Part shown: positions 37,055 through 50,815 of the stretch, piece after piece
Layout of the letters: each line of letters opens with the position of its first letter
Numbering within the stretch: position 1 is the stretch's first letter
Source of the DNA: a virus
IMG/VR virus record: IMGVR_UViG_3300008267_000065
Coordinates: 1 to 53,069 of that record
Reading direction: 5' to 3' (one strand)
Length of the DNA: 53,069 nt
Made by a program: the position numbers and the translations under genes
Notes under the pieces: model-generated
Database searches by the model: none
Told to the model about the DNA's origin: nothing
What the model saw: the letters and a program-made list of their open reading frames with translations, nothing else

Positions 37055-40000
37055 ATGGCAGATGTTGACCCTGGCAATAAAATAAGGACTGAAAAAGGTT
37101 TAGTTGTTAGAGATAAAAAAGATGGTGGTGCACAATACAGACTATATTGGGGTTCTTTTAAAGGTGCAACTGGTACGCACACTACCTATTTTTTTAATCA
37201 AAATAACAGTATTTTAGAACCTGGCAATTCAGTTTTTACAAAATTAAAAAAATACTACGTGGATGATCCCTCAAACTGTGATATTTATTTTTATTTTTTG
37301 ACAGCTTTTGACTATTCAAGGATTATAGATTATTTATTTTATACTAAAAATATAAATATTCAAAAGGCTAGGGAATATTATAACGATCCCAACTACAAGA
37401 CAAACCCAGGAGGATTTGGCTTGCTGCAGCGCGCCGTCAGTATTGCAAAAGATTTTGCTAATAACTTATCAAATAAAGCGCAAATTTACATAATAGGATC
37501 AGAAGGTCATAATCTTAAGCCGATGCGGACGGAACTTGATCACCAAAGCACCTTTATAAGAAATTCGGGTTATAATAAAGAACAAATATACGAAGGACAA
37601 CACTGGGAGCCTTTTGTTAGATTAATAAATGGCCTTATTGGCAGTAGCAGTCCCGTTACTGAAGAACCAATTAAATTTATTAAATTTAGAAATGGCTTAA
37701 CCTATCCACAATTTGAGCAAGAAGTTAGAGAATTTATACACCAACAACAAGCAGCGAGACTTATCGTCAAAGGAGCAGGTATAAACCATAATCTTGATGA
37801 ATATCTTGTTAAAAAACCTGCAGATGCACCAAGAGCAACAACAAAACCATCCACCTCAACATCCTCCTCCACTTCATCACCCTCATCATCCACACCTACA
37901 TCTCCTCCAACCGCACCAACTGAAACAGATGACGTTCGCCAAAAACGTGAACAAAAAATAATAACAGCAAATAAAACAAGAATAAATGAACAAGCCGCAT
38001 TAATCATAAATGCTGACAGGTTTTTAGCACAGAAATATAATATTGTCGATAAAGCTAATGATCAAAGGACTTCTAAGCTGGCAAGAAAGGACGAAGTCTA
38101 TGAAAACTTTGTTTTATATAGAAATGGTAGCGCTGACGGCGCAGGTGGTCATATTGACTTTACAAAAAATCTGATCAAAACAGAAGAGTTCAGATCTCTC
38201 CTAAGAGACGCCGATCCTGCATTATTATCTGCTTTGACACCAGCTATAAGAATATATAAAGTATTCTATCCAAGCAAAACAAAAACAGGTACAAAAAGAG
38301 GAAATCAATCTTTTTCTTGGTTGGTTCCTTTTGATGAAGTTCCGTTTAATGTAAAAAGAGGAGAAGTTGCAAAAACATCTGCTTATTTAGGAACCAATAA
38401 ACAAGATTCAATAAATAAAATACTAAACGGAGAATCAAAGCTCCATGGAGCAGGAATAAAATCGTTTAGTTACAAGTTCATAGGAACAAATCCAGCAGAA
38501 GTAAACAGTAGAATTGACGCTGATTTAGAACTATATTTCCAGGATGTAAGAGACTTAATAAAAGTAATAGATGTTGGAGCACAAGATAAAAATTTTATTG
38601 GTGACCCTAAACCAACTGCTACACTAAAGTTTTCATACGCCGATCTTATTGCCGATTCTCCATTGTATAAATCAACCGATTCAAATCCTATAATAAATGA
38701 AGATTATTATAGAATAAAAATAGCGGTTGGATATTCTATTCCTCCAAAGTCTTATCTAAAGAAGTTGTTAAATGAAGACGATGATTCTAAAATACAAAAA
38801 CTAATAGATGCTCTAAAAAAAGCAACTGTTGTGCTTTATTTAAACCCTCATACACATCAAGTTTCATTTGATGAAACCGGTTCTGTCATACTAAAAATTA
38901 AATATACCTGTGCTATGACAACAGATAAAACAAATTTAAACTGTTTAAGAATTGCTAAAGATTCCTATACAAAACTTAAAACAGCAGAGGAAGCTTATGA
39001 TAATGCTTTATCAAGTGCTACTACCTCCGACAATAAAGAAAAAGCAAAGAAAGCTTTATATAAAGAATTGGCAGATGTTGAATATAACAAAAACGAAGTA
39101 TATGCAGAAATTTTTTCAAGATTAACTGGTGTGCATAGAAGTACAAACACAACTAAATATAAATTATTTGAAGCAGTTTTTAACGCAGAAGCGCTTGGTT
39201 TAACACCGACGGGTGAATTACAAACAGACACAACAAAACTTTATGAAAATTTAGATAAAGCAAGACAAGTTAAATCCTTTCAAACTACAAAATTTGGTCA
39301 AGAGGATCGTGGATATTATTTAACTCAAAATCCTGCTATTCCGGACGATGCGATTATCAAACCAGATATGAATGACGCACAGCGCAACGACGCCGTTGCA
39401 AAATTACGAGAATATTATTCTAATTTAGCACCACAAACAAATTTAAGCAAAACTGACCCAAGTTTAGCAAAAGGTTTGTTCCCTGTAAAATTCATGTTTT
39501 TTGGAGACATATTTGACACATTTTGTGAAATATTAGATAACGTAGATTACGAAGAAGATAGACCAAAAATAGTATTAACCGAATTTGCTCTTGATATACC
39601 AGTTTCTTATAAAAGTGGTGAAGGTCAAAATGGCATAAAATATCAAAATTTTGTTTTTAACATAGCTGACATACCTGTATCTCTTGAAATGTTTAGATAC
39701 TTTTTTATGGAACGAGTCGTAAAACAACGCCTATCAAAATATGATCTATTCTCCTTAATAACAGATCTTCTTGTGGATGTTATATCAAACTCGGTCTCTA
39801 CATCCTATTTTGGATCCAAAGGTGTATTAAATAATTCTGTACGTATGACTTCTTTATCTTTATCTTTCCCAAAAGCAAAAGATAAGGATGTATTAGAAGG
39901 TATCAGAGAAAGAAATTCTGGTGCACCACAAAAATACAATGGCATAATACTTGGAACAAACATTAAAGATAAAAGACAAGAACTAATACAGTCTACTACA

Positions 40001-40522
40001 TTAGAGACATTTTCAGGAAATATAAGCAATTATTCAATAATGCATACATCTAATCAATTTCCACAAATTATTAGAAGTAATAATGGAGTTGTTGACAAAG
40101 ATGAAGCAGCAGGTATATTTCATATGTACGTTGGATCAAACAGGGGTTTAATTAAAAAAATAGATTTTGTTAAGCAGGATATGCCTTTTTATAAAGAGAT
40201 GAAGTTTAGATCTAGTTTTGGTGAAAAAAGTTTAGGAAGATTATTAGAAGTTTATGATGCAAACATAACAATGTTTGGAAATAATATTTATAGACCTGGT
40301 GATTTTTTGTATATTGAACCTATATTTTTTTCAACCAGTCAGGCAGCAGCAGATTTAGGCAGATTAGGTTTGGGCGGCTATTATATGGTTATGGACGTTG
40401 AAACAAAAATGTCGTCTGATAGCTATGAAACTGTTCTAAGAACAAAAATAGTTGGAAGGGTAGAAAATGGTAGTGTAGAATCCTTTGCGCCATATCGAGG
40501 CGGCGCGCCGATTAAACTATAG
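37055..40522 (+). CDS. Large baseplate/hub structural protein
   Basis: This 1155-residue protein has three parts. Residues 1-260 form an unassigned domain ('YFYFLTAFDYSRIIDYLFY', 'AQIYIIGSEGHNLKP'). About 262-292 is a Ser/Thr/Pro linker. The remaining part resembles large virion proteins of marine T4-like phages: 'FSYKFIGTNPAEVNSRIDADLELYFQ' (split here by strands), 'VPFNVKRGEVAK', 'YFGSKGVLNNSVRMTSLSLS' and 'GDFLYIEPIFFS' near the end, where the fold looks like a hub beta-barrel. It probably sits at the centre of the baseplate. I see no clear lysozyme or peptidase motif. T4 has no single equivalent of this size. Confidence 0.65.
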   Translation: MADVDPGNKIRTEKGLVVRDKKDGGAQYRLYWGSFKGATGTHTTYFFNQNNSILEPGNSVFTKLKKYYVDDPSNCDIYFYFLTAFDYSRIIDYLFYTKNINIQKAREYYNDPNYKTNPGGFGLLQRAVSIAKDFANNLSNKAQIYIIGSEGHNLKPMRTELDHQSTFIRNSGYNKEQIYEGQHWEPFVRLINGLIGSSSPVTEEPIKFIKFRNGLTYPQFEQEVREFIHQQQAARLIVKGAGINHNLDEYLVKKPADAPRATTKPSTSTSSSTSSPSSSTPTSPPTAPTETDDVRQKREQKIITANKTRINEQAALIINADRFLAQKYNIVDKANDQRTSKLARKDEVYENFVLYRNGSADGAGGHIDFTKNLIKTEEFRSLLRDADPALLSALTPAIRIYKVFYPSKTKTGTKRGNQSFSWLVPFDEVPFNVKRGEVAKTSAYLGTNKQDSINKILNGESKLHGAGIKSFSYKFIGTNPAEVNSRIDADLELYFQDVRDLIKVIDVGAQDKNFIGDPKPTATLKFSYADLIADSPLYKSTDSNPIINEDYYRIKIAVGYSIPPKSYLKKLLNEDDDSKIQKLIDALKKATVVLYLNPHTHQVSFDETGSVILKIKYTCAMTTDKTNLNCLRIAKDSYTKLKTAEEAYDNALSSATTSDNKEKAKKALYKELADVEYNKNEVYAEIFSRLTGVHRSTNTTKYKLFEAVFNAEALGLTPTGELQTDTTKLYENLDKARQVKSFQTTKFGQEDRGYYLTQNPAIPDDAIIKPDMNDAQRNDAVAKLREYYSNLAPQTNLSKTDPSLAKGLFPVKFMFFGDIFDTFCEILDNVDYEEDRPKIVLTEFALDIPVSYKSGEGQNGIKYQNFVFNIADIPVSLEMFRYFFMERVVKQRLSKYDLFSLITDLLVDVISNSVSTSYFGSKGVLNNSVRMTSLSLSFPKAKDKDVLEGIRERNSGAPQKYNGIILGTNIKDKRQELIQSTTLETFSGNISNYSIMHTSNQFPQIIRSNNGVVDKDEAAGIFHMYVGSNRGLIKKIDFVKQDMPFYKEMKFRSSFGEKSLGRLLEVYDANITMFGNNIYRPGDFLYIEPIFFSTSQAAADLGRLGLGGYYMVMDVETKMSSDSYETVLRTKIVGRVENGSVESFAPYRGGAPIKL

Positions 40523-40530
40523 GAGACAAA

Positions 40531-41820
40531 ATGACTTTTGATGATAAATTATATTATCCCTCAAGAAGCAAAAACGATACCGATTCAACAACTGTTTTGT
40601 TTGAGGCAAGAGATTTCTTTAAAAAATATACAACTCCTTATGCTGAATATCGTGCGCTAACTTCTATTAACTCTAAAGTTAGTTTTGAAAATAGAAGAAT
40701 TATTCCTTTTAGTGATTTATACAGAGAAAACAGTTTATATGGAACAATAGATGATGAAGGTGATATAATATCACCGCTACCAACTATGAGTAATTTTAGA
40801 AGTGTTGGAAATGATATTGATGGAAATATAATTTATTTACAAAATTTTGTTGCAGACGCTATGACAGATATGGTAAAGTATCTAGATGATCGAATGACAG
40901 CTGGATGTGTTGGAGCTTTACCAGCAGATATAGCAGGATCACAATTTTTACATTTAAAAGTAAAAAAAGCATACAAGCCGTCCTCTGAAGTATCAAGTTT
41001 ATACTCAGCAAATGCAGTAATAACAGCAAATAAATTTAAAGAATACTGCAATTCAAATAAAGGACTCGACTCAGCGATTAAAGATCCTGTAGAATTTACA
41101 AAGCATTATTTGTACTTTTTAAAAGACCACATAGATATCATACCTGCAACAAAAACAAGATTTCAAGCGGCCATGTATTTTGAATCGTTAAATAACGGTA
41201 TTACATTCTCTTTATCCGACGATGACTGTGGAGATGATGAAAACAAATATGAAAAATATATGTTAGATAAAATGTTTCTAATGTTTTCAGATGCATGTAT
41301 ACGTTATGGATTTAGGATGGATAAAAATAATATTTTTCTTCTACACGCAGATTTAAATTCGCCAGCTATGAAACCATATTTACAAAAATATGGATTAACA
41401 GATTATAAAGATGTGTTTAAAAAAAGATATAAAAAAATATATGTAGAAGACATAGAATCATTAAAAGAATATTTTATAGATTCTTATAAATCATTTTTAA
41501 CAAATAATAACTATTATAAAAAATATGTAAATGAAGTTAAGTATGTTAGTGAAATAAAAATTTTAACAAGAAAAACACTAGAAAGTGAACAAGATGAAAA
41601 AAATTATTTTAGAAAATTTCCTGATTCATTTTGGATAAAATTATATATTCAATATAAATCTTCTGAGTTAAAATACAACTTTAATAATAAAGAAATAGAG
41701 TATCTAACTAGGAAAACATCTTCCATGTATTCGCTTAACAAAAAAGACGGATTAAAATATATAAATGATAAATTTAATGAATTAAAAAATAACATGAATT
41801 TTTCCTCTTCCAAGAAATAA
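40531..41820 (+). CDS. Virion structural protein, end of the baseplate module
   Basis: This 429-residue protein starts with an AGGAGA site eight bases ahead. The N-terminal half includes 'FFKKYTTPYAEYRALTSINS' and 'VADAMTDMVKYLDDRMTAG'. The second half is Lys/Tyr/Asn-rich with 'FTKHYLYFLKDHIDIIPATK', 'YGFRMDKNNIFLLHADLNSP' and 'MKPYLQKYGLTDYKDVFKK'. The last elements, 'ADLNSPxMxxYxxKYG', are a pattern I recall from marine T4-like proteins encoded next to the hub. It is the last structural gene before the polymerase. Its exact position in the virion is unknown. Confidence 0.6.
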   Translation: MTFDDKLYYPSRSKNDTDSTTVLFEARDFFKKYTTPYAEYRALTSINSKVSFENRRIIPFSDLYRENSLYGTIDDEGDIISPLPTMSNFRSVGNDIDGNIIYLQNFVADAMTDMVKYLDDRMTAGCVGALPADIAGSQFLHLKVKKAYKPSSEVSSLYSANAVITANKFKEYCNSNKGLDSAIKDPVEFTKHYLYFLKDHIDIIPATKTRFQAAMYFESLNNGITFSLSDDDCGDDENKYEKYMLDKMFLMFSDACIRYGFRMDKNNIFLLHADLNSPAMKPYLQKYGLTDYKDVFKKRYKKIYVEDIESLKEYFIDSYKSFLTNNNYYKKYVNEVKYVSEIKILTRKTLESEQDEKNYFRKFPDSFWIKLYIQYKSSELKYNFNNKEIEYLTRKTSSMYSLNKKDGLKYINDKFNELKNNMNFSSSKK

Positions 41821-41861: not shown

Positions 41862-43070
41862 TTGATATTTCAAACACTAGACGACAAAAAAGAATGTATT
41901 GGAGTATATGCAGAAGGAAAGTTAAACACGGGTAATATACCAAATAACCTAACAGAAACCTGGTCTTATTCATCTTTTTTAAAAGGTAAAGATATAGAAT
42001 ATGCCAAACTATATTGTGAAGGAAAGAATATAGCGGACATATGTCCAGAAAACTTAAAAGAAGAGTACGATAAAGTAGTTAAAAAACTACACTCATTCAA
42101 TAATTCATTTAAAGAAGCTAAGATAGATTTATCAGAAAATTGTTTTTTTGATTTAACTCCAAAGAAGTTTTTAATTGACTATTGTGAAGTAAAAAACAAA
42201 ATAACAAAACACGTACTAGAAACATATAAAAAACCAGTAGAGTATGACTTTTATAGAAGATTTAATGAAATTATTGTAGATATAGAAGAACGTGAATTAA
42301 ACGTAGATTTTGAGCAGATGAAGAAAAACATCGCTAAAGACAAAGATTTAGTTCACTATCGCAGATTGTTAAATGTTGATGATAAAGTATCTTACAATCT
42401 TTTTGGCTCAATAACAGGTAGGCTATCTACAAATAAAAATAGCTTTCCAATTCTTAACTTCCCAAAAAGTTTTAGAAATGTTATAAAACCTCAAAATGAT
42501 TGGTTTGTTGCATTTGACATGAATGCAGCAGAACTAAGAACTTCTCTTGCACTAGTAGAAAAAGATCAACCAGAAGAAGATCTATATGAAACTATTTCAA
42601 GAGAAATTTACGAAGATAAGCATACAAGAAAAGAAGTAAAAGAAGCTACAACTGCTTGGCTATATAATTCTAATAATGAACTTGCAACAAAATACGCAGA
42701 TAAGCTAGATGAAATGTTTTGGAAAGAAACACTTATAAACACACATTGGGATGGAAAATATGTTTATACACCATTTAATAGAAAAATTGAAAGTGATAAG
42801 TTCCATGCTATTTCGTATCTAAATCAAAGTACGTTTATAGATTTATGGCATAGACAAACAATAAAAGTAGATGACTATTTATCAGACAAAAAATCTTTTA
42901 TTGCTTTTCTTCTGCATGATGAATTAGTGCTAGATATAACCGACGATGAACGCGGTGATCTACCAGAAATTATAAAACTAATACAAGATACTCAATTTGG
43001 TAAATTTCTTGTTAATGTAAAAGCTGGTAAAGATTACGGCAATATGAAGAAACTAAAAATTAAGGTATAA
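41862..43070 (+). CDS. polA: DNA polymerase, family A, minimal polymerase domain
   Basis: The start is TTG 41862 with GAGG five bases upstream; the nearby ATG stops at once. The 402-residue protein carries the family A motifs: 'GSITGRLST' (182-190), motif A 'AFDMNAAELR' with D219, motif B with R256, K260 and Y268 ('TRKEVKEATTAWLY'), and motif C 'LLHDELVL' with H352-D353-E354. The first 110 residues have no recognisable DEDD exonuclease motifs, so proofreading would come from another gene. T4 uses a family B enzyme (gp43). Rhodothermus phage RM378 is, as I recall, a distant T4 relative with a split family A polymerase. It is followed at once by the FtsZ/tubulin-like gene. Confidence 0.88.
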   Translation: MIFQTLDDKKECIGVYAEGKLNTGNIPNNLTETWSYSSFLKGKDIEYAKLYCEGKNIADICPENLKEEYDKVVKKLHSFNNSFKEAKIDLSENCFFDLTPKKFLIDYCEVKNKITKHVLETYKKPVEYDFYRRFNEIIVDIEERELNVDFEQMKKNIAKDKDLVHYRRLLNVDDKVSYNLFGSITGRLSTNKNSFPILNFPKSFRNVIKPQNDWFVAFDMNAAELRTSLALVEKDQPEEDLYETISREIYEDKHTRKEVKEATTAWLYNSNNELATKYADKLDEMFWKETLINTHWDGKYVYTPFNRKIESDKFHAISYLNQSTFIDLWHRQTIKVDDYLSDKKSFIAFLLHDELVLDITDDERGDLPEIIKLIQDTQFGKFLVNVKAGKDYGNMKKLKIKV

Positions 43071-43072
43071 AA

Positions 43073-43897
43073 ATGACTGTTATAGGATTGGGTGAAGCTG
43101 GATGTAGTATTGCTGAGTTGTTTGAAGGTAACGATAAATTTAACGTTAAATTGTTTGATACAAACATAGAGGGTGATAACTGTTTTTCACTTCAAAAACA
43201 AGCATCTCCGGAATCGTATGAAAAACACTTCCCAGATGTTCAAAAGTTTCTTGAAGATAGTGATGAGGAAATTTTATTCTTTGTAGCTGGTGGCGGTAAT
43301 ATAAGTGGTGCTACATTGAAGCTATTAAATTATGTTAAGGACAGAAAAATATACGTTGTATATATAAAACCAGACATTCAATCGTTAGACAATATGCAAA
43401 AAATGCAAGATAGACTTGTATATAACGTATTGCAGGAATATACAAGAAGCGGTATGTTTACTGGTATGATTGTTGTTTCAAATGAACAACTAGAGAATGT
43501 ATGTGGCGAAGTCCCAGCATACACGTATTATCTAACGCTAAACAAGCTGCTTGTTAACACAATACTTGCTATAAAAAATGGTATGCAAAAAGAGCCAATA
43601 TACGACACATATTCTAGTCCAAGAGAAGTAGCGTGTATTGCTACATATGGTGTATATGATTTAAAAACAGATGAAGAAAAATTTTTTTATGATCTATCCA
43701 ACATAGAAAACAAATGTTACTATTTTTTCATAAACAAAAATAGGTTAGAAAATGATGGTCATCTATTTAAAGAAATAAAAAATACGATGAAAAAAAAATC
43801 TGTTGACAGCGTAAAAATTTCCTGTATAATACATGAAACTGACTCGGAAGAAGATTTTTGTTATGTAACAGCAAATTCTTCAAAAATCCAAAGATGA
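43073..43897 (+). CDS. FtsZ/tubulin-like protein
   Basis: This 274-residue protein follows the FtsZ order of motifs. It has an N-terminal glycine loop 'VIGLGEAGCSIAELF' (residues 3-17), 'LFDTN' (28-31), a tubulin-signature-like loop 'FVAGGGNISGATLKLL' (70-85), then 'IYVVYIKP', and a guanine-recognition-like region 'MIVVSNEQLENV' with N137 followed by a helix with N157 and N162. The T7 loop region 'YDTYSSPREV' lacks the N-x-D-x-x-D pattern, so hydrolysis may be weak or absent. It could be a filament-forming or GTP-binding factor. It starts two bases after polA, suggesting a replication-linked role, for example positioning DNA as proposed for PhuZ. The fold call is inference from motifs. Confidence 0.65.
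   Translation: MTVIGLGEAGCSIAELFEGNDKFNVKLFDTNIEGDNCFSLQKQASPESYEKHFPDVQKFLEDSDEEILFFVAGGGNISGATLKLLNYVKDRKIYVVYIKPDIQSLDNMQKMQDRLVYNVLQEYTRSGMFTGMIVVSNEQLENVCGEVPAYTYYLTLNKLLVNTILAIKNGMQKEPIYDTYSSPREVACIATYGVYDLKTDEEKFFYDLSNIENKCYYFFINKNRLENDGHLFKEIKNTMKKKSVDSVKISCIIHETDSEEDFCYVTANSSKIQR
43803..43830 (+). promoter_or_regulatory. Perfect-consensus sigma70 promoter inside the FtsZ-like gene
   Basis: TTGACA (43803-43808) and TATAAT (43825-43830) are both exact consensus and lie 16 bases apart, within the last 100 bases of the FtsZ-like gene. It would drive the 79-residue gene and gp32 without polA. This is the strongest promoter sequence in the window. Confidence 0.7.
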
Positions 43898-43904
43898 GAA
43901 TATT

Positions 43905-44144
43905 ATGAAAACTTTTAGAGCAACATTTAGAAAAAAAGACGGCTCGATTAGAGAAATGTTTTTTGCAAAATTAAAAGACTTGCCGCCAGAATTTTTAGCT
44001 GGTAAAGTAAAGGGGAAGAGTTCGCCGCCTCTCAAAGAAGGAACAGAATTGGTTTGGGATTTAGATCTAAATGAATTTAGAATTGTAAATTGGACAACTG
44101 TTCTTGGCGACGTAGACGAAAAAGAAGAAAATATTGTACTTTAA
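43905..44144 (+). CDS. Small SH3-barrel-like protein, WYL_2/DUF2693-like
   Basis: This 79-residue protein reads 'MKTFRATFRKKDGSIREMFF', then 'LKEGTELVWDLDLNEFRIVNW'. The alternation of short strands, with an early 'KKDGSIRE' and a later 'VWDLDxxEFRxxN', resembles the small phage Sm/SH3-like proteins grouped as WYL_2 (DUF2693). These are often encoded near replication genes. It begins 7 bases after the FtsZ-like stop and has its own upstream perfect promoter. A nucleic-acid-binding or regulatory role is plausible but not shown. Confidence 0.6.
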   Translation: MKTFRATFRKKDGSIREMFFAKLKDLPPEFLAGKVKGKSSPPLKEGTELVWDLDLNEFRIVNWTTVLGDVDEKEENIVL

Positions 44145-44219: not shown

Positions 44220-45002
44220 ATGGCTATTGATATCAAGAAGATGAAGGCAAAACTTGACGCACTAAACAGTAAGGGTGGAAGTGGTAACAAGACTTCGTTC
44301 TGGAGTCCAAAAGAAGGTAACAGTTATTCAGTACGTATTGTTCCAACACCAGACGGTGATCCATTTAAGGAATACTGGTTTCACTATGAACTAGGTACTC
44401 AAGGAGGCTTCCTATGCCCGAAGAAGAACTTTGGTGATAATTGCCCAGCTTGTGATTTTGCCAGCAAGCTATATAAAGAGAAGAATGAAGAAAGTGCCAA
44501 AATGGCTAAAAAGTTTCTTCCACGTCAACGATTCTTCTCACCAGTTGTTGTAAGAGGTGAAGAATCAGACGGCATTAAGATTTGGGGATATGGCAAGCTT
44601 GCATATCAGGATATGATTAATCTTGTACTAAATCCAGACTACGGAGATATTACAGACCCAGAAGAGGGTACAGATCTAACAATTGCTTCCAGCAAAGCTC
44701 CTGGTCAATCATTCCCAACAACCAAGATCACACCAGCTCGTAAAACCAGTAAACTATGCCAAGGTAGTTCACAAGATTGTAAGGAACTACTAGACTCTAT
44801 GCCAGATTTTGAGAAGCTACATACTCGTAAATCTTCAAGTGAAGTTGGTCAGATTCTAGATGAGCATCTAGCTGGTGCTGACGCAGAAGAAGAAAGCAGT
44901 GAGACTGTAAAGTTTGGCAGCAAACAAGCTGTTAAACCAGTTGTCCGCAAGCAAGAACGCAATCCAGTCGATGAAGCATTTGATGCACTTTTGGACTCTT
45001 AA
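44220..45002 (+). CDS. gp32: Single-stranded DNA-binding protein, gp32-like
   Basis: This 260-residue protein matches T4 gp32. A basic N-terminal cooperativity region ('MAIDIKKMKAKLDAL') leads into an OB-fold core with the gp32 zinc ligands H55, C66, C75 and C78 ('HYELGTQGGFLC', 'CPAC'), 'ARQRFF'-like 'LPRQRFFSPVVVRG' and 'IKIWGYGKLAYQDM', and ends in an acidic tail ('DEHLAGADAEEESSE'). It coats single-stranded DNA during replication, recombination and repair and organises polymerase, helicase loader and UvsX. Its 75-base leader carries an extended -10 promoter and a GC-rich stretch that could allow gp32-type self-regulation. A terminator follows. Confidence 0.92.
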   Translation: MAIDIKKMKAKLDALNSKGGSGNKTSFWSPKEGNSYSVRIVPTPDGDPFKEYWFHYELGTQGGFLCPKKNFGDNCPACDFASKLYKEKNEESAKMAKKFLPRQRFFSPVVVRGEESDGIKIWGYGKLAYQDMINLVLNPDYGDITDPEEGTDLTIASSKAPGQSFPTTKITPARKTSKLCQGSSQDCKELLDSMPDFEKLHTRKSSSEVGQILDEHLAGADAEEESSETVKFGSKQAVKPVVRKQERNPVDEAFDALLDS

Positions 45003-45076: not shown

Positions 45077-46210
45077 ATGGCTAAAAAAGCACCATCATCA
45101 GCAGGAAAAATAAGTATCGCAGATATGCGAGCAATGATTAACAAAAAAAGTGGAAGAGAAGTAGCATATGATCTTCAAGATCAAAATCCAACAGAAGTAA
45201 CTGAGTGGATTCCAACAGGCTCACGATGGCTTGATTCAATTATTTGCAGGGGTAAACTAGCTGGTGTTCCTGTCGGTAAGATTAGCGAACTAGCAGGCGA
45301 AACAGCCAGCGGCAAAAGCTATATGGCTGCACAGATTGCAGCAAATGCCCAAAAAATGGGTATTTCTGTAGTCTATTTTGATAGCGAAAGCGCTATTGAC
45401 CCAGACTTTCTAGAAAAAGCAGGGTGTAATATTGAGAATCTGCTATATGTTCAAGCAGACTCTGTTGAGTTTGTTCTTGAAACAATTGAAGATCTGTTGA
45501 AGAGTACAGATGATAAATTCTTGTTTGTATGGGATTCAATGGCACTTACACCAAGCAAGACTGATATTGAAGGTGATTTTGATCCACAATCATCAATGGC
45601 TGTTAAACCAAGAATTCTATCAAAAGGTTTATCAAAGCTAATCCAGCCAATTGCCAATAAGCAAAGCACCCTGCTTATTCTTAATCAATTAAAGACAAAT
45701 CTAAATGTACAAAATATTAAATACGCAACAGATAGTGAAAAGTATACAACTCCAGGCGGAAAAGCTCTTGCATATTCTTATAGTCTCCGTATATGGCTAA
45801 CAGGTCGTAAGGGAAAAGATGATTATGTAAATGATGAGCGTGGTTATAGAATTGGTTCAAAGGTTAAAGCAAGGCTAGAAAAATCACGATTTGGAACACA
45901 AGGCAGGGAGTGTCTATTCCGTATTATGTGGGGTACTGAACAAGTAGGTATTCTTGATGGAGAAAGCATCTTTGAAGCCATCAAACCATTTATTAAACAA
46001 AGTGGTGCATGGTACGAAATTGAAGTAGACGGTAAACCAAAGAAGTTCCAGCAATCTCAATGGGACGATCTTATGAAAGATGACAACTTTAGACAGACTG
46101 TTTATAGACTAATGGACGAAGAAGTAATTGTTAAATTTGATAACAGAGAGGGAGAGTCTAGTCTTTTTTATAATATCGAAGGTTCTGAACCAACCGAACA
46201 GGCGGTATAG
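45077..46210 (+). CDS. uvsX: RecA/UvsX-like recombinase
   Basis: This 377-residue protein is a RecA-fold strand-exchange ATPase. It shows 'IPTGSRWLDSIICRGKLAGVP' (45-65), Walker A 'GETASGKS' (74-81), 'VVYFDSESAIDPDFLEKAG' with the catalytic acidic residues, Walker B-like 'KFLFVWDSMALTPSK', 'STLLILNQLKTN' and 'TTPGGKALAYSYSLRIWL'. The GETxSGKS form and the 'PGGxAxxYxxSxR' loop fit T4-type UvsX. It would catalyse recombination-dependent replication with gp32 and the SbcCD fusion. A promoter and hairpin separate it from gp32. No intein or insertion is seen. Confidence 0.93.
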   Translation: MAKKAPSSAGKISIADMRAMINKKSGREVAYDLQDQNPTEVTEWIPTGSRWLDSIICRGKLAGVPVGKISELAGETASGKSYMAAQIAANAQKMGISVVYFDSESAIDPDFLEKAGCNIENLLYVQADSVEFVLETIEDLLKSTDDKFLFVWDSMALTPSKTDIEGDFDPQSSMAVKPRILSKGLSKLIQPIANKQSTLLILNQLKTNLNVQNIKYATDSEKYTTPGGKALAYSYSLRIWLTGRKGKDDYVNDERGYRIGSKVKARLEKSRFGTQGRECLFRIMWGTEQVGILDGESIFEAIKPFIKQSGAWYEIEVDGKPKKFQQSQWDDLMKDDNFRQTVYRLMDEEVIVKFDNREGESSLFYNIEGSEPTEQAV

Positions 46211-48270: not shown

Positions 48271-48411
48271 ATGTATAAATTATTGATTTTGACAACAATT
48301 TTTTCTTGTGCTAGTATCGACAAAACAGAGATGAGAGAAAAATATAAGGAACCATCGTTTTGTAAAAATACTCTTCAACATGACATTCATAGAAATGAAT
48401 GTCTGAGGTGA
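48271..48411 (+). CDS. Putative small lipoprotein, 46 residues
   Basis: ATG 48271 lies two bases after the previous stop. The 46-residue product starts with a short hydrophobic signal and lipobox-like end, 'MYKLLILTTIFSCAS', with C13 as possible lipid attachment site. It is followed by a charged segment and two further cysteines ('SFCKNT', 'NECLR'). Small phage lipoproteins can act as outer spanins or superinfection-exclusion factors; neither can be decided here. It ends just before the flap exonuclease gene. The reading frame is short, so confidence is moderate. Confidence 0.45.
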   Translation: MYKLLILTTIFSCASIDKTEMREKYKEPSFCKNTLQHDIHRNECLR

Positions 48412-48413
48412 TT

Positions 48414-49379
48414 TTGGAAAAGAAAAAAGTATTAATCATAGACGGCAATAATAACTATTTTAGAGCATATATTGTAGATCCAAGTGTTTCCACCAATGGT
48501 CAACCTATTGGTGGAATTACTGGTTTTTTAAAAATCCTCCAGAAACTTATTCGTGAAACAAATCCAAACAGAGTTGTTATATGTTGGGACGGTCAAGGAG
48601 GATCGGCTAAACGTAAAGGAATGAATAAGAATTATAAAGAAGGTAGAAAGCCTATTAGACTGAATAGAAATATAAAAAATCTATCAGAGAGTGAAGATAT
48701 AGACAATAAAATTTGGCAAATGACAAGACTAGCAGAGTATATTAATACAATGCCTATTATTCAATTGCTATTAGATGGGGTGGAAGCAGATGATATCATT
48801 TCTGCTGTAGCTAACCACAAGAGTCTACAATCATACAATAAAGTGATTGTATCTAGTGATAAAGATTTTATTCAGCTATGTAACAATTCTACAATTTTGT
48901 ATAGACCCGTACAACATGAAATCTTAAACAAGAATAAGGTTATTGAAGAATATGGAATTCACCCAAATAATTTCTGTCTTGCTAGAGCTTTGTCTGGTGA
49001 TAAATCAGATAACATAGATGGTGTTGAAGGGATTGGTTTGCCTACTGTTGCTAAACGTTTTCCAATCCTATCAGAAGAAAAAGTTTATACAGTTGATGAG
49101 TTAGTAGATTATTGTATAAAAAGTGAATCAAAGGTAAAAGCTTACTCAAGCGTAGTAGAACAGCAGGATAAAATTAGAGACAATTATAAGATCATGCAAC
49201 TGGCGATACCAAACATCTCGGTTCAAGATTCTATGAAAATAGATTATGCTATGGAAAATAGTGAGTGTACATTTAATAAACTTGATATCGTAAAGATGAT
49301 GATTGAAGATGGATTTCCTTCTTTGAATTTAGACGAACTATTTATTCATCTAAAAAAGATTGTTCTTGAAAACTGTTAA
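48414..49379 (+). CDS. 5'-3' exonuclease / flap endonuclease (RNase H-like of T4)
   Basis: I prefer TTG 48414, with GAGG five bases upstream, like the polA start; an in-frame ATG at 48399 lacks a ribosome site and overlaps the lipoprotein. The protein of about 321 residues is of the FEN/PIN family: 'KKVLIIDGNNNYFRAYI' with the first aspartate, 'NRVVICWDGQGGSAKRK', 'LLDGVEADDIISAVA', 'KVIVSSDKDFIQLC' and 'ALSGDKSDNIDGVEGIG' with the helix-hairpin-helix. These acidic clusters bind two metals. It would remove RNA primers during Okazaki fragment processing, as T4 RNase H does, and complements the polymerase, which has no such domain. Confidence 0.88.
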   Translation: MEKKKVLIIDGNNNYFRAYIVDPSVSTNGQPIGGITGFLKILQKLIRETNPNRVVICWDGQGGSAKRKGMNKNYKEGRKPIRLNRNIKNLSESEDIDNKIWQMTRLAEYINTMPIIQLLLDGVEADDIISAVANHKSLQSYNKVIVSSDKDFIQLCNNSTILYRPVQHEILNKNKVIEEYGIHPNNFCLARALSGDKSDNIDGVEGIGLPTVAKRFPILSEEKVYTVDELVDYCIKSESKVKAYSSVVEQQDKIRDNYKIMQLAIPNISVQDSMKIDYAMENSECTFNKLDIVKMMIEDGFPSLNLDELFIHLKKIVLENC

Positions 49380-49394
49380 ATTGCGTGGTAGATT
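49366..49394 (+). promoter_or_regulatory. Promoter upstream of the replicative helicase
   Basis: TTGAAA (49366-49371, 5/6) and TAGATT (49389-49394) are 17 bases apart. The -10 is preceded by TTGCGTGG, matching the GCGTGG block before gp32 and giving an extended -10 (TGGTAGATT). Confidence 0.5.
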
Positions 49395-49414
49395 GTTGGA
49401 AATCTGGAGAGAAA

Positions 49415-50815
49415 ATGGCCGAGAAAGATAACAAAAATTTTATCAATGAAAAAGCCTCATTTGAGAAGTTTGGAACTAAATTTCAAGAAAACCTAGTGCA
49501 ACTAATGCTAGACGATAGAACCTTCTGTGATCAATTAACAGAAGTTATGGATATACATTTCTTAGATCTAAAATACCTAAGAGTCTTTGTTGAAAAGATG
49601 ATTCAATACCGTAAAAAATATGGTACTCATCCGTCACGCGATACAATGACGATGATTCTAAGATCAGATATAGATAAAGAAAACGAAGTCACCCAGAAAC
49701 AAGTACGTGATTTCTATGCAAGAGTACAAGCTAACGAGTTCAGTCTTGATGGTGAACAACATATCAAGGATGTATCGCTTGATTTCTGTAAAAAGCAGAA
49801 ACTAAAAGAGGCGATGATTAAAAGCGTCGGCCTTATTCAGAACTCATCTTTTGATGAAGTAAGCAAGATTATCAATGATGCTCTAAAGCTTGGAATGGAC
49901 AATGATCAAGGGTATGATTTTTTCCTTGACTTTGAAAAGCGTTTTGAGTTGAAAGCTAGAAATCCAATCAGCACTGGTTGGGAGCTAATTGATAATATTA
50001 CAAAGGGTGGTTTAGGTAGAAGCGAGCTTGGTGTTGTTGTTGCTCCAACTGGTGCCGGAAAGAGCATGGCATTAGTTCATCTTGGAGCAGCAGCTTTACA
50101 AGCTGGATTGAACGTGGTACATTACACTCTGGAATTGCAAGATAAGGTTGTTGCTCTACGTTATGATTCCTGCATAACAGGCATCTCTCTACAAGACGTT
50201 AAAGAACAGAAAGATCAAGTTTGGGAGGGAATTAAAGACGTTAATGGTAAGCTTATTATTAAAGAATATCCTACAAAAAGCGCATCAACTAATACCCTCA
50301 AAAATCATCTTGAAAAACTAAAAAGACGAGAACATCGTGTTGATATGGTTATTGTTGATTACGGCGATCTACTTAAACCAGTTTCTGCACAAAAAGAGAA
50401 ACGAAACGAACTAGAAAGCATCTATGAAGAATTACGTGGTCTTGCACAAACTTATGGATGTAGTATCTGGACTGCCTCTCAAACAAACCGGAGTGGATTG
50501 AATGCAGAAGTTATCACAATGGAAAGTATTTCAGAGGCGTTCAATAAGTGTTTCGTTGCTGACTTCATCTTCACGGTTTCTAGAACAATAAAAGATAAAA
50601 ACACAAACGAAGGTCGGATCTTTGTTGCAAAGAATCGAAATGGACCCGATGGATTAGTATTCCCAATTTTTATGGATACAAGCAATGTCAAGATAAAAGT
50701 CCTAAGTCAGAGTACTGAAACCGCAACAGAAATTATGGAAAGTGCAACAAAAAAACAGGAAGAAGAACTACGTAAGAAATACAAGAATTATCGTAAAGAG
50801 CAAAAGGCATCTTAA
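49415..50815 (+). CDS. gp41: Replicative DNA helicase, DnaB/gp41-like
   Basis: ATG 49415 ('MAEKDNKNF') follows GGAGAG; the longer frame from 49385 would begin inside the promoter -10. The 466-residue protein has a small N-terminal helical domain and a RecA-like motor: 'ISTGWELIDNITKGGLGRSE', Walker A 'APTGAGKS' (210-217), 'VHYTLELQDKVVALRYDS', Walker B 'VDMVIVDYGDLL', 'GCSIWTASQTNRSG' and an arginine-finger-like 'GRIFVAKNRNGPDG'. It would form the hexamer that unwinds the fork and bind the primase at 1545. It is preceded by a promoter of the same class as gp32 and uvsX. Confidence 0.92.
   Translation: MAEKDNKNFINEKASFEKFGTKFQENLVQLMLDDRTFCDQLTEVMDIHFLDLKYLRVFVEKMIQYRKKYGTHPSRDTMTMILRSDIDKENEVTQKQVRDFYARVQANEFSLDGEQHIKDVSLDFCKKQKLKEAMIKSVGLIQNSSFDEVSKIINDALKLGMDNDQGYDFFLDFEKRFELKARNPISTGWELIDNITKGGLGRSELGVVVAPTGAGKSMALVHLGAAALQAGLNVVHYTLELQDKVVALRYDSCITGISLQDVKEQKDQVWEGIKDVNGKLIIKEYPTKSASTNTLKNHLEKLKRREHRVDMVIVDYGDLLKPVSAQKEKRNELESIYEELRGLAQTYGCSIWTASQTNRSGLNAEVITMESISEAFNKCFVADFIFTVSRTIKDKNTNEGRIFVAKNRNGPDGLVFPIFMDTSNVKIKVLSQSTETATEIMESATKKQEEELRKKYKNYRKEQKAS

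Follow-up and report, generated by a model that had tools for sequence, protein, structure and literature searches.

A tubulin/FtsZ-fold protein encoded beside a compact family A DNA polymerase in uncultured T4-related phages: a candidate replication partner

To our knowledge, the characterised tubulins of phages, TubZ and PhuZ, are GTPases whose filaments move DNA or virions. TubZ is the partition tubulin of plasmids and of Clostridium and Bacillus phages. PhuZ is a GTPase that forms filaments and requires its C-terminal tail (PMC3678025). FtsZl1 and FtsZl2 are divergent FtsZ-like families of cells, tied to membrane-remodelling genes (PMC2875224). A gene of this kind beside a phage polymerase has not been described in the open-licence literature found, and neither tubulin nor FtsZ is mentioned in the text of the paper by Roux et al. 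on Far-T4, a set of uncultivated phages (PMC4360716).

The DNA analysed here, referred to as the window, is a stretch of 53,069 nucleotides from the IMG/VR record IMGVR_UViG_3300008267_000065. Gene X, an ORF on the plus strand with an ATG start, encodes 274 amino acids and begins 2 nucleotides after the stop codon of a DNA polymerase gene (Table 1). A preliminary description of this DNA, made from the sequence alone, had placed an FtsZ/tubulin-like protein directly behind the polymerase, with its motifs in the order of FtsZ. Both the position and the motifs are as it described: GLGEAGC lies at residues 5-11, AGGGNISGA at 72-80, IYVVYIKP at 93-100 and VVSNEQL at 134-140, followed by a long helix (residues 149-172) that carries N157. 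X is not a chance frame, as invariant columns are common to 84 non-redundant homologues of at least 265 amino acids each.

Table 1. Positions in the window of gene X, its motifs and the neighbouring replication genes.
Feature	Position	Strand	Basis
Compact DNA polymerase, predicted family A, 402 aa, without exonuclease domain	41862..43070	+	Pfam, AlphaFold2, Foldseek
Gene X, predicted tubulin/FtsZ-fold protein, 274 aa	43073..43897	+	ORF, AlphaFold2, Foldseek, homologues
T1 glycine loop GLGEAGCS, residues 5-12	43085..43108	+	Aligns with FtsZ GVGGAGCN
Degenerate T4 signature loop AGGGNISGA, residues 72-80 (FtsZ counterpart GGGTGTG)	43286..43312	+	Alignment, conservation
Family-specific motif QEYTRS, residues 121-126, end of helix H5	43433..43450	+	Column conservation
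T6 loop S136-N137, position of guanine-contacting FtsZ Asn	43478..43483	+	FtsZ alignment
Core helix H7, residues 149-172, with N157 (second guanine-contacting position)	43517..43588	+	AlphaFold2, alignment
Short link replacing T7 loop and H8, residues 173-187; conserved acid and predicted helix absent	43589..43633	+	AlphaFold2, conservation
WYL_2-like small protein, in part of the group	43905..44144	+	Pfam E 2.7e-5, below cut-off; synteny
Single-strand DNA-binding protein (SSB)	44220..45002	+	PHROG 1192 E 2e-26
UvsX-like recombinase	45077..46210	+	PHROG 97 E 2e-53
5'-3' exonuclease, PolI N-terminal type, separate from polymerase	48399..49379	+	Pfam 5_3_exonuc_N E 7e-33
DnaB-like replicative helicase	49385..50815	+	PHROG 19 E 6e-74

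Sequence alone makes a weak case for a tubulin identity, and the structural match is strong. The top Pfam match of X is Tubulin (E = 0.01, half of the cut-off score), matched in one of 14 family members, and searches against PHROGs, NCBIfam (including TIGR00065, FtsZ) and PDB sequences returned nothing meaningful. An hhalign comparison of the X profile with 27 FtsZ sequences placed residues 1-167 in register (P = 6e-4, against P = 0.91 for the reversed profile; reported probability 28%), and its global mode gave nothing usable. The AlphaFold2 model of X, computed from a 14-sequence input, has a pLDDT of 89.8 and a pTM of 0.88, with lower confidence in the T7 region. Its secondary structure follows the order of FtsZ, i.e. 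S1-H1-S2, a strand and short helix, S4-H4-S5-H5-S6-H6, a 24-residue core helix and a C-terminal domain. Searched against the PDB with Foldseek, which was the kind of test proposed in the preliminary description, the model gave 573 matches below 0.001, of which the top 50 are all FtsZ or TubZ over the whole length of X; the best is an FtsZ (E = 1.4e-12, TM 0.72). The viral structures that resemble it are PhuZ proteins and a protein annotated as FtsZ from an uncultured phage. The model and the top Foldseek matches place X, by its predicted fold, in the tubulin/FtsZ superfamily. An ordinary Rossmann dehydrogenase was also considered, as TrkA_N and alcohol dehydrogenase weakly matched the first 30-60 residues; this reading was dropped because the top fold matches are exclusively FtsZ and TubZ.

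X shares with FtsZ the whole two-domain fold, the positions of the guanine-contacting asparagines and a near-identical T1 loop (GLGxAGC(N) in X, GVGGAGCN in FtsZ), but it is only 274 amino acids long and is tied to a DNA polymerase gene. B. cereus TubZ is matched by fold (E 2.4e-11) and, as X, is found on mobile DNA; X differs from it in lacking the C-terminal tail and extra helices and in lying within a polymerase-SSB operon, with no partition genes seen among its neighbours (polymerase, WYL_2-like protein, SSB and UvsX). The fold match to PhuZ, likewise a phage protein of the tubulin superfamily, is weaker (BFVD, E 1e-5). The PhuZ gene of phiKZ lies several kilobases from the polymerase gene whereas X adjoins it, and X has no PHROG match, which places it outside the PhuZ PHROG. 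As with X, FtsZl1 and FtsZl2 are deeply divergent families of the FtsZ superfamily that were first noticed through weak profile matches, and their description as cellular and linked to membrane remodelling sets the polymerase-linked X apart (PMC2875224). In its position X resembles the gp45 clamp and gp44/gp62 clamp loader of T4, accessory genes that also adjoin the phage polymerase gene; however, the folds are unrelated, and the T4-type versions went undetected in the genomes tested.

Conservation was counted over the 84 homologues. The glycines of the T1 loop are retained in nearly all of them (G7 in 84, G5 in 77 and G10 in 72). Unlike in FtsZ, the T4 signature is degenerate, reading GGGNISGA in X and GGSGxISGA or more divergent forms in its relatives, none of which matches GGGTG[TS]G. 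N137 is present in 74/84 sequences and N157 in 76/84; both align with guanine-contacting asparagines of FtsZ, at positions which we take to be those touching the guanine base in FtsZ and tubulin. Further departures from FtsZ lie toward the C-terminus, where the AlphaFold2 model has no predicted H8 helix and X ends right after its last strand, at residue 274, so that helix H11 and the C-terminal linker and tail are absent (alignment, model). The preliminary description had noted that the acidic pair of the T7 loop was not evident, and this is borne out across the family: no conserved acidic column occurs in residues 165-191 among the 84 sequences. The degenerate T4 loop and the missing T7 acids make it unlikely that X hydrolyses GTP.

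The two asparagines tend to be lost together, as eight of the ten sequences without N137 also lack N157 (Fisher test, uncorrected for relatedness), and these double losses fall in three separate branches of the tree. The paired loss suggests that N137 and N157 form one site in the remaining members, and also that this site is dispensable for whatever retains gene X. The conservation peak of X lies elsewhere, in the motif QEYxRS, which closes H5 and adjoins a short segment that FtsZ lacks. Q121, Y123 and R125 are invariant (84/84) and the glutamate and serine are each present in 83/84; the motif is family-specific and not common to FtsZ. All three lineages without N137 and N157 keep both QEYxRS and the linkage to the polymerase. 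Statements about surfaces of X rest on secondary structure and alignment. The median pI of the family is 5.5, which gives no hint of nucleic acid binding.

The linkage between X and the polymerase is nearly complete. Where at least 700 bp of sequence precede X (94 genes), the polymerase lies upstream in the same orientation in 92 cases; 70 of the 94 X genes lie within 20 nt of it and 51 overlap it, 29 of these by 4 nt. The contigs of the two exceptions start about 2 kb upstream of X, and in one of them the stretch upstream is filled by a 663-aa open frame like the ORFs inserted in relatives. Conversely, with a different reference sequence, X was found downstream in 76 of 79 polymerase loci, and the other three contigs end within 314 bp of the polymerase. 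Since the sampled loci are the closest matches to the queries, these percentages hold for this group. In none of the sampled polymerase loci were the polymerase and X found fused into one ORF. Almost all relatives have the order polymerase, X, (WYL_2-like protein), SSB, UvsX, which is kept despite insertions of up to about 2.5 kb. ORFs of 640-800 aa lie between polymerase and X in a few relatives (L005:7320-9713, L070:2025-4406 and L097:1466-3391); L005 had been taken for a locus without X, and X is present there behind the inserted 797-aa ORF. By distance-matrix correlation, X follows the polymerase only slightly more closely than it follows UvsX. Two further genes precede the polymerase in most relatives, at 37055-40522 (1155 aa) and 40531-41820 (429 aa) in the window, and their products have no PHROG match and no Pfam family above cut-off.

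Searches with the single protein returned no relatives (INPHARED by tblastn, IMG/VR by patterns, PDB sequences). The adjoining polymerase as query gave 21 IMG/VR loci, nearly all with an X homologue directly behind it, and the X alignment then found at least 596 relatives in IMG/VR, of which 80 were retained. At the sensitivities used, the family has no representative in Pfam, PHROGs, NCBIfam, INPHARED phages (two members as queries) and PLSDB plasmids (one member as query). RM378, a cultured distant T4-like phage, has no match to X, the polymerase, the SSB or UvsX. The GTDB species genomes contain one relative, inside a metagenome-assembled WOR-3 genome. There, a block of polymerase, X, SSB and UvsX lies between bacterial genes with runs of N nearby (L103:2508-8230, CP070664.1), and it may be what remains of a phage or the product of a chimeric assembly.

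The polymerase matches Pfam DNA_pol_A just below cut-off (E 2e-8). Its AlphaFold2 model has a pLDDT of 93 and is matched by Bst, Klenow and Taq fragments in Foldseek, so that its predicted fold is that of family A. At about 400 residues it has no room for a full 3'-5' exonuclease domain. At its start (41862-41930) the protein has a short, strongly conserved beta hairpin, FQTLDDKxEC, which could be what is left of an exonuclease domain or could serve for docking. Three of nine large genomes encode a proofreading-type exonuclease (RNase_T). Elsewhere in the window, a 1044-aa ORF at 3419-6553 matches SbcD-like and SbcC-like phage families and appears, from these matches, to be a fused T4 gp47/gp46 pair.

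The preliminary description had called the phage T4-like, and the virion module is indeed T4-related (terminase, portal and major head protein). Across eight large genomes of the group, PolA matches were confined to one ORF each and no family B polymerase was matched. The Pfam model of the gp45 clamp found nothing in these eight genomes; among the controls it detected T4, P-SSM2 and HTVC008M and missed S-PM2. Profiles built from T4 and marine T4-like proteins found none of gp43, gp44, gp45, gp62 and RegA in two genomes of about 187 kb. The clamp loaders of T4-like controls gave strong AAA matches at a typical size (E about 1e-19 to 1e-22), whereas in phages of the group most AAA matches are weaker and incomplete and fall in proteins of about 360 aa; one strong match was seen, in a 428-aa frame of G035. 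The genomes of the group are environmental contigs of uncertain completeness, and since the clamp model also missed S-PM2, a divergent clamp may exist. A second FtsZ-like protein of 345-383 aa with an intact GGGGGTGS loop is encoded in three of ten large genomes (L249:3284-4435, L250:2887-3981 and L251:2805-3845); in L249 its gene lies directly behind a gene for an SbcC/D-like protein of about 1035 aa, and its match to TIGR00065 FtsZ is below cut-off (4e-15).

Taken together, we consider it fairly probable that X is a non-hydrolysing partner from the tubulin superfamily, dedicated to a minimal family A polymerase and its compact replisome in a large set of uncultured phages distantly related to T4. 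The case for a polymerase partner comes from the shared operon, the overlapping genes and the near-complete co-occurrence, which speak for it indirectly, and from the survival of QEYxRS where the nucleotide site has probably gone. X and the polymerase would be produced together by translational coupling, and X may bind the polymerase or a polymerase-SSB complex through a family-specific surface, e.g. the QEYxRS corner, and serve as an accessory or scaffold subunit where the T4-type clamp and clamp loader went undetected. In most members a guanine nucleotide is probably still bound in a structural role, with hydrolysis unlikely, and some lineages have probably lost the site. X would thus have departed from the way of life of a GTPase filament, and ordinary protofilaments are unlikely. 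A narrower proposal is that X is a processivity or holding subunit, a pseudo-GTPase tubulin that would stand in for both the sliding clamp and its loader in this group. The failure to detect a T4-type clamp makes it appealing, but we regard it as rather doubtful; that failure would be explained equally well by use of the host's clamp, by a clamp that went unrecognised or by a polymerase that is processive by itself.

The remaining readings place X outside the replisome. It could form filaments that position DNA, in the manner of TubZ and PhuZ, with its gene sitting in the replication operon by chance. It has the fold of that superfamily, the guanine-contacting positions are mostly retained and phage tubulins with such roles are known (PMC3678025). 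A filament system is nevertheless unlikely for a protein without the T7 acids, a predicted H8 or a C-terminal tail, the last being important in the polymerisation of PhuZ (PMC3678025); moreover, the nucleotide positions were lost three times while the gene was retained, and the second, more FtsZ-like gene of three large genomes could serve instead. The absence of the T7 side would make X a natural chain terminator, and its fold could mimic an FtsZ subunit, so that X might cap or poison filaments of host FtsZ or of the phage's second FtsZ-like protein and block host division. Genes for host takeover tend to be early and variable, whereas X stands behind the polymerase with hardly an exception. 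Its conservation peak, QEYxRS, is absent from FtsZ. This role is possible yet improbable, as it leaves the universal polymerase linkage unexplained. We hold it just as improbable that X is a sensor of guanine nucleotides or a regulator of replication-gene expression, comparable to T4 RegA in position and not a subunit of the replisome. Its place in a replication operon, the non-detection of RegA in the two genomes of about 187 kb and the guanine-contacting positions conserved in most members fit such a role, but the independent loss of both asparagines in three branches that kept the gene argues against nucleotide sensing as its essential role, and the acidic pI speaks for no regulator that binds nucleic acid. 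Among the roles offered in the preliminary description, the near-complete linkage favours the replication-linked one, while no positive evidence was found for a filament cap or an inhibitor of host FtsZ.

The pairing of gene X with the polymerase gene suggests that a cytoskeletal fold is now part of a viral DNA-copying machine. Hundreds of uncultured T4-related phages carry this shortened tubulin/FtsZ-shaped protein, which appears to lack the residues that cut GTP; its gene nearly always adjoins that of a very small DNA polymerase. A T4-related replisome in which no T4-type clamp is detected raises the question of what holds a 400-residue polymerase on DNA. A widespread, polymerase-tied family, with some branches apparently lacking the nucleotide site, would show a tubulin fold working without hydrolysis or filaments.
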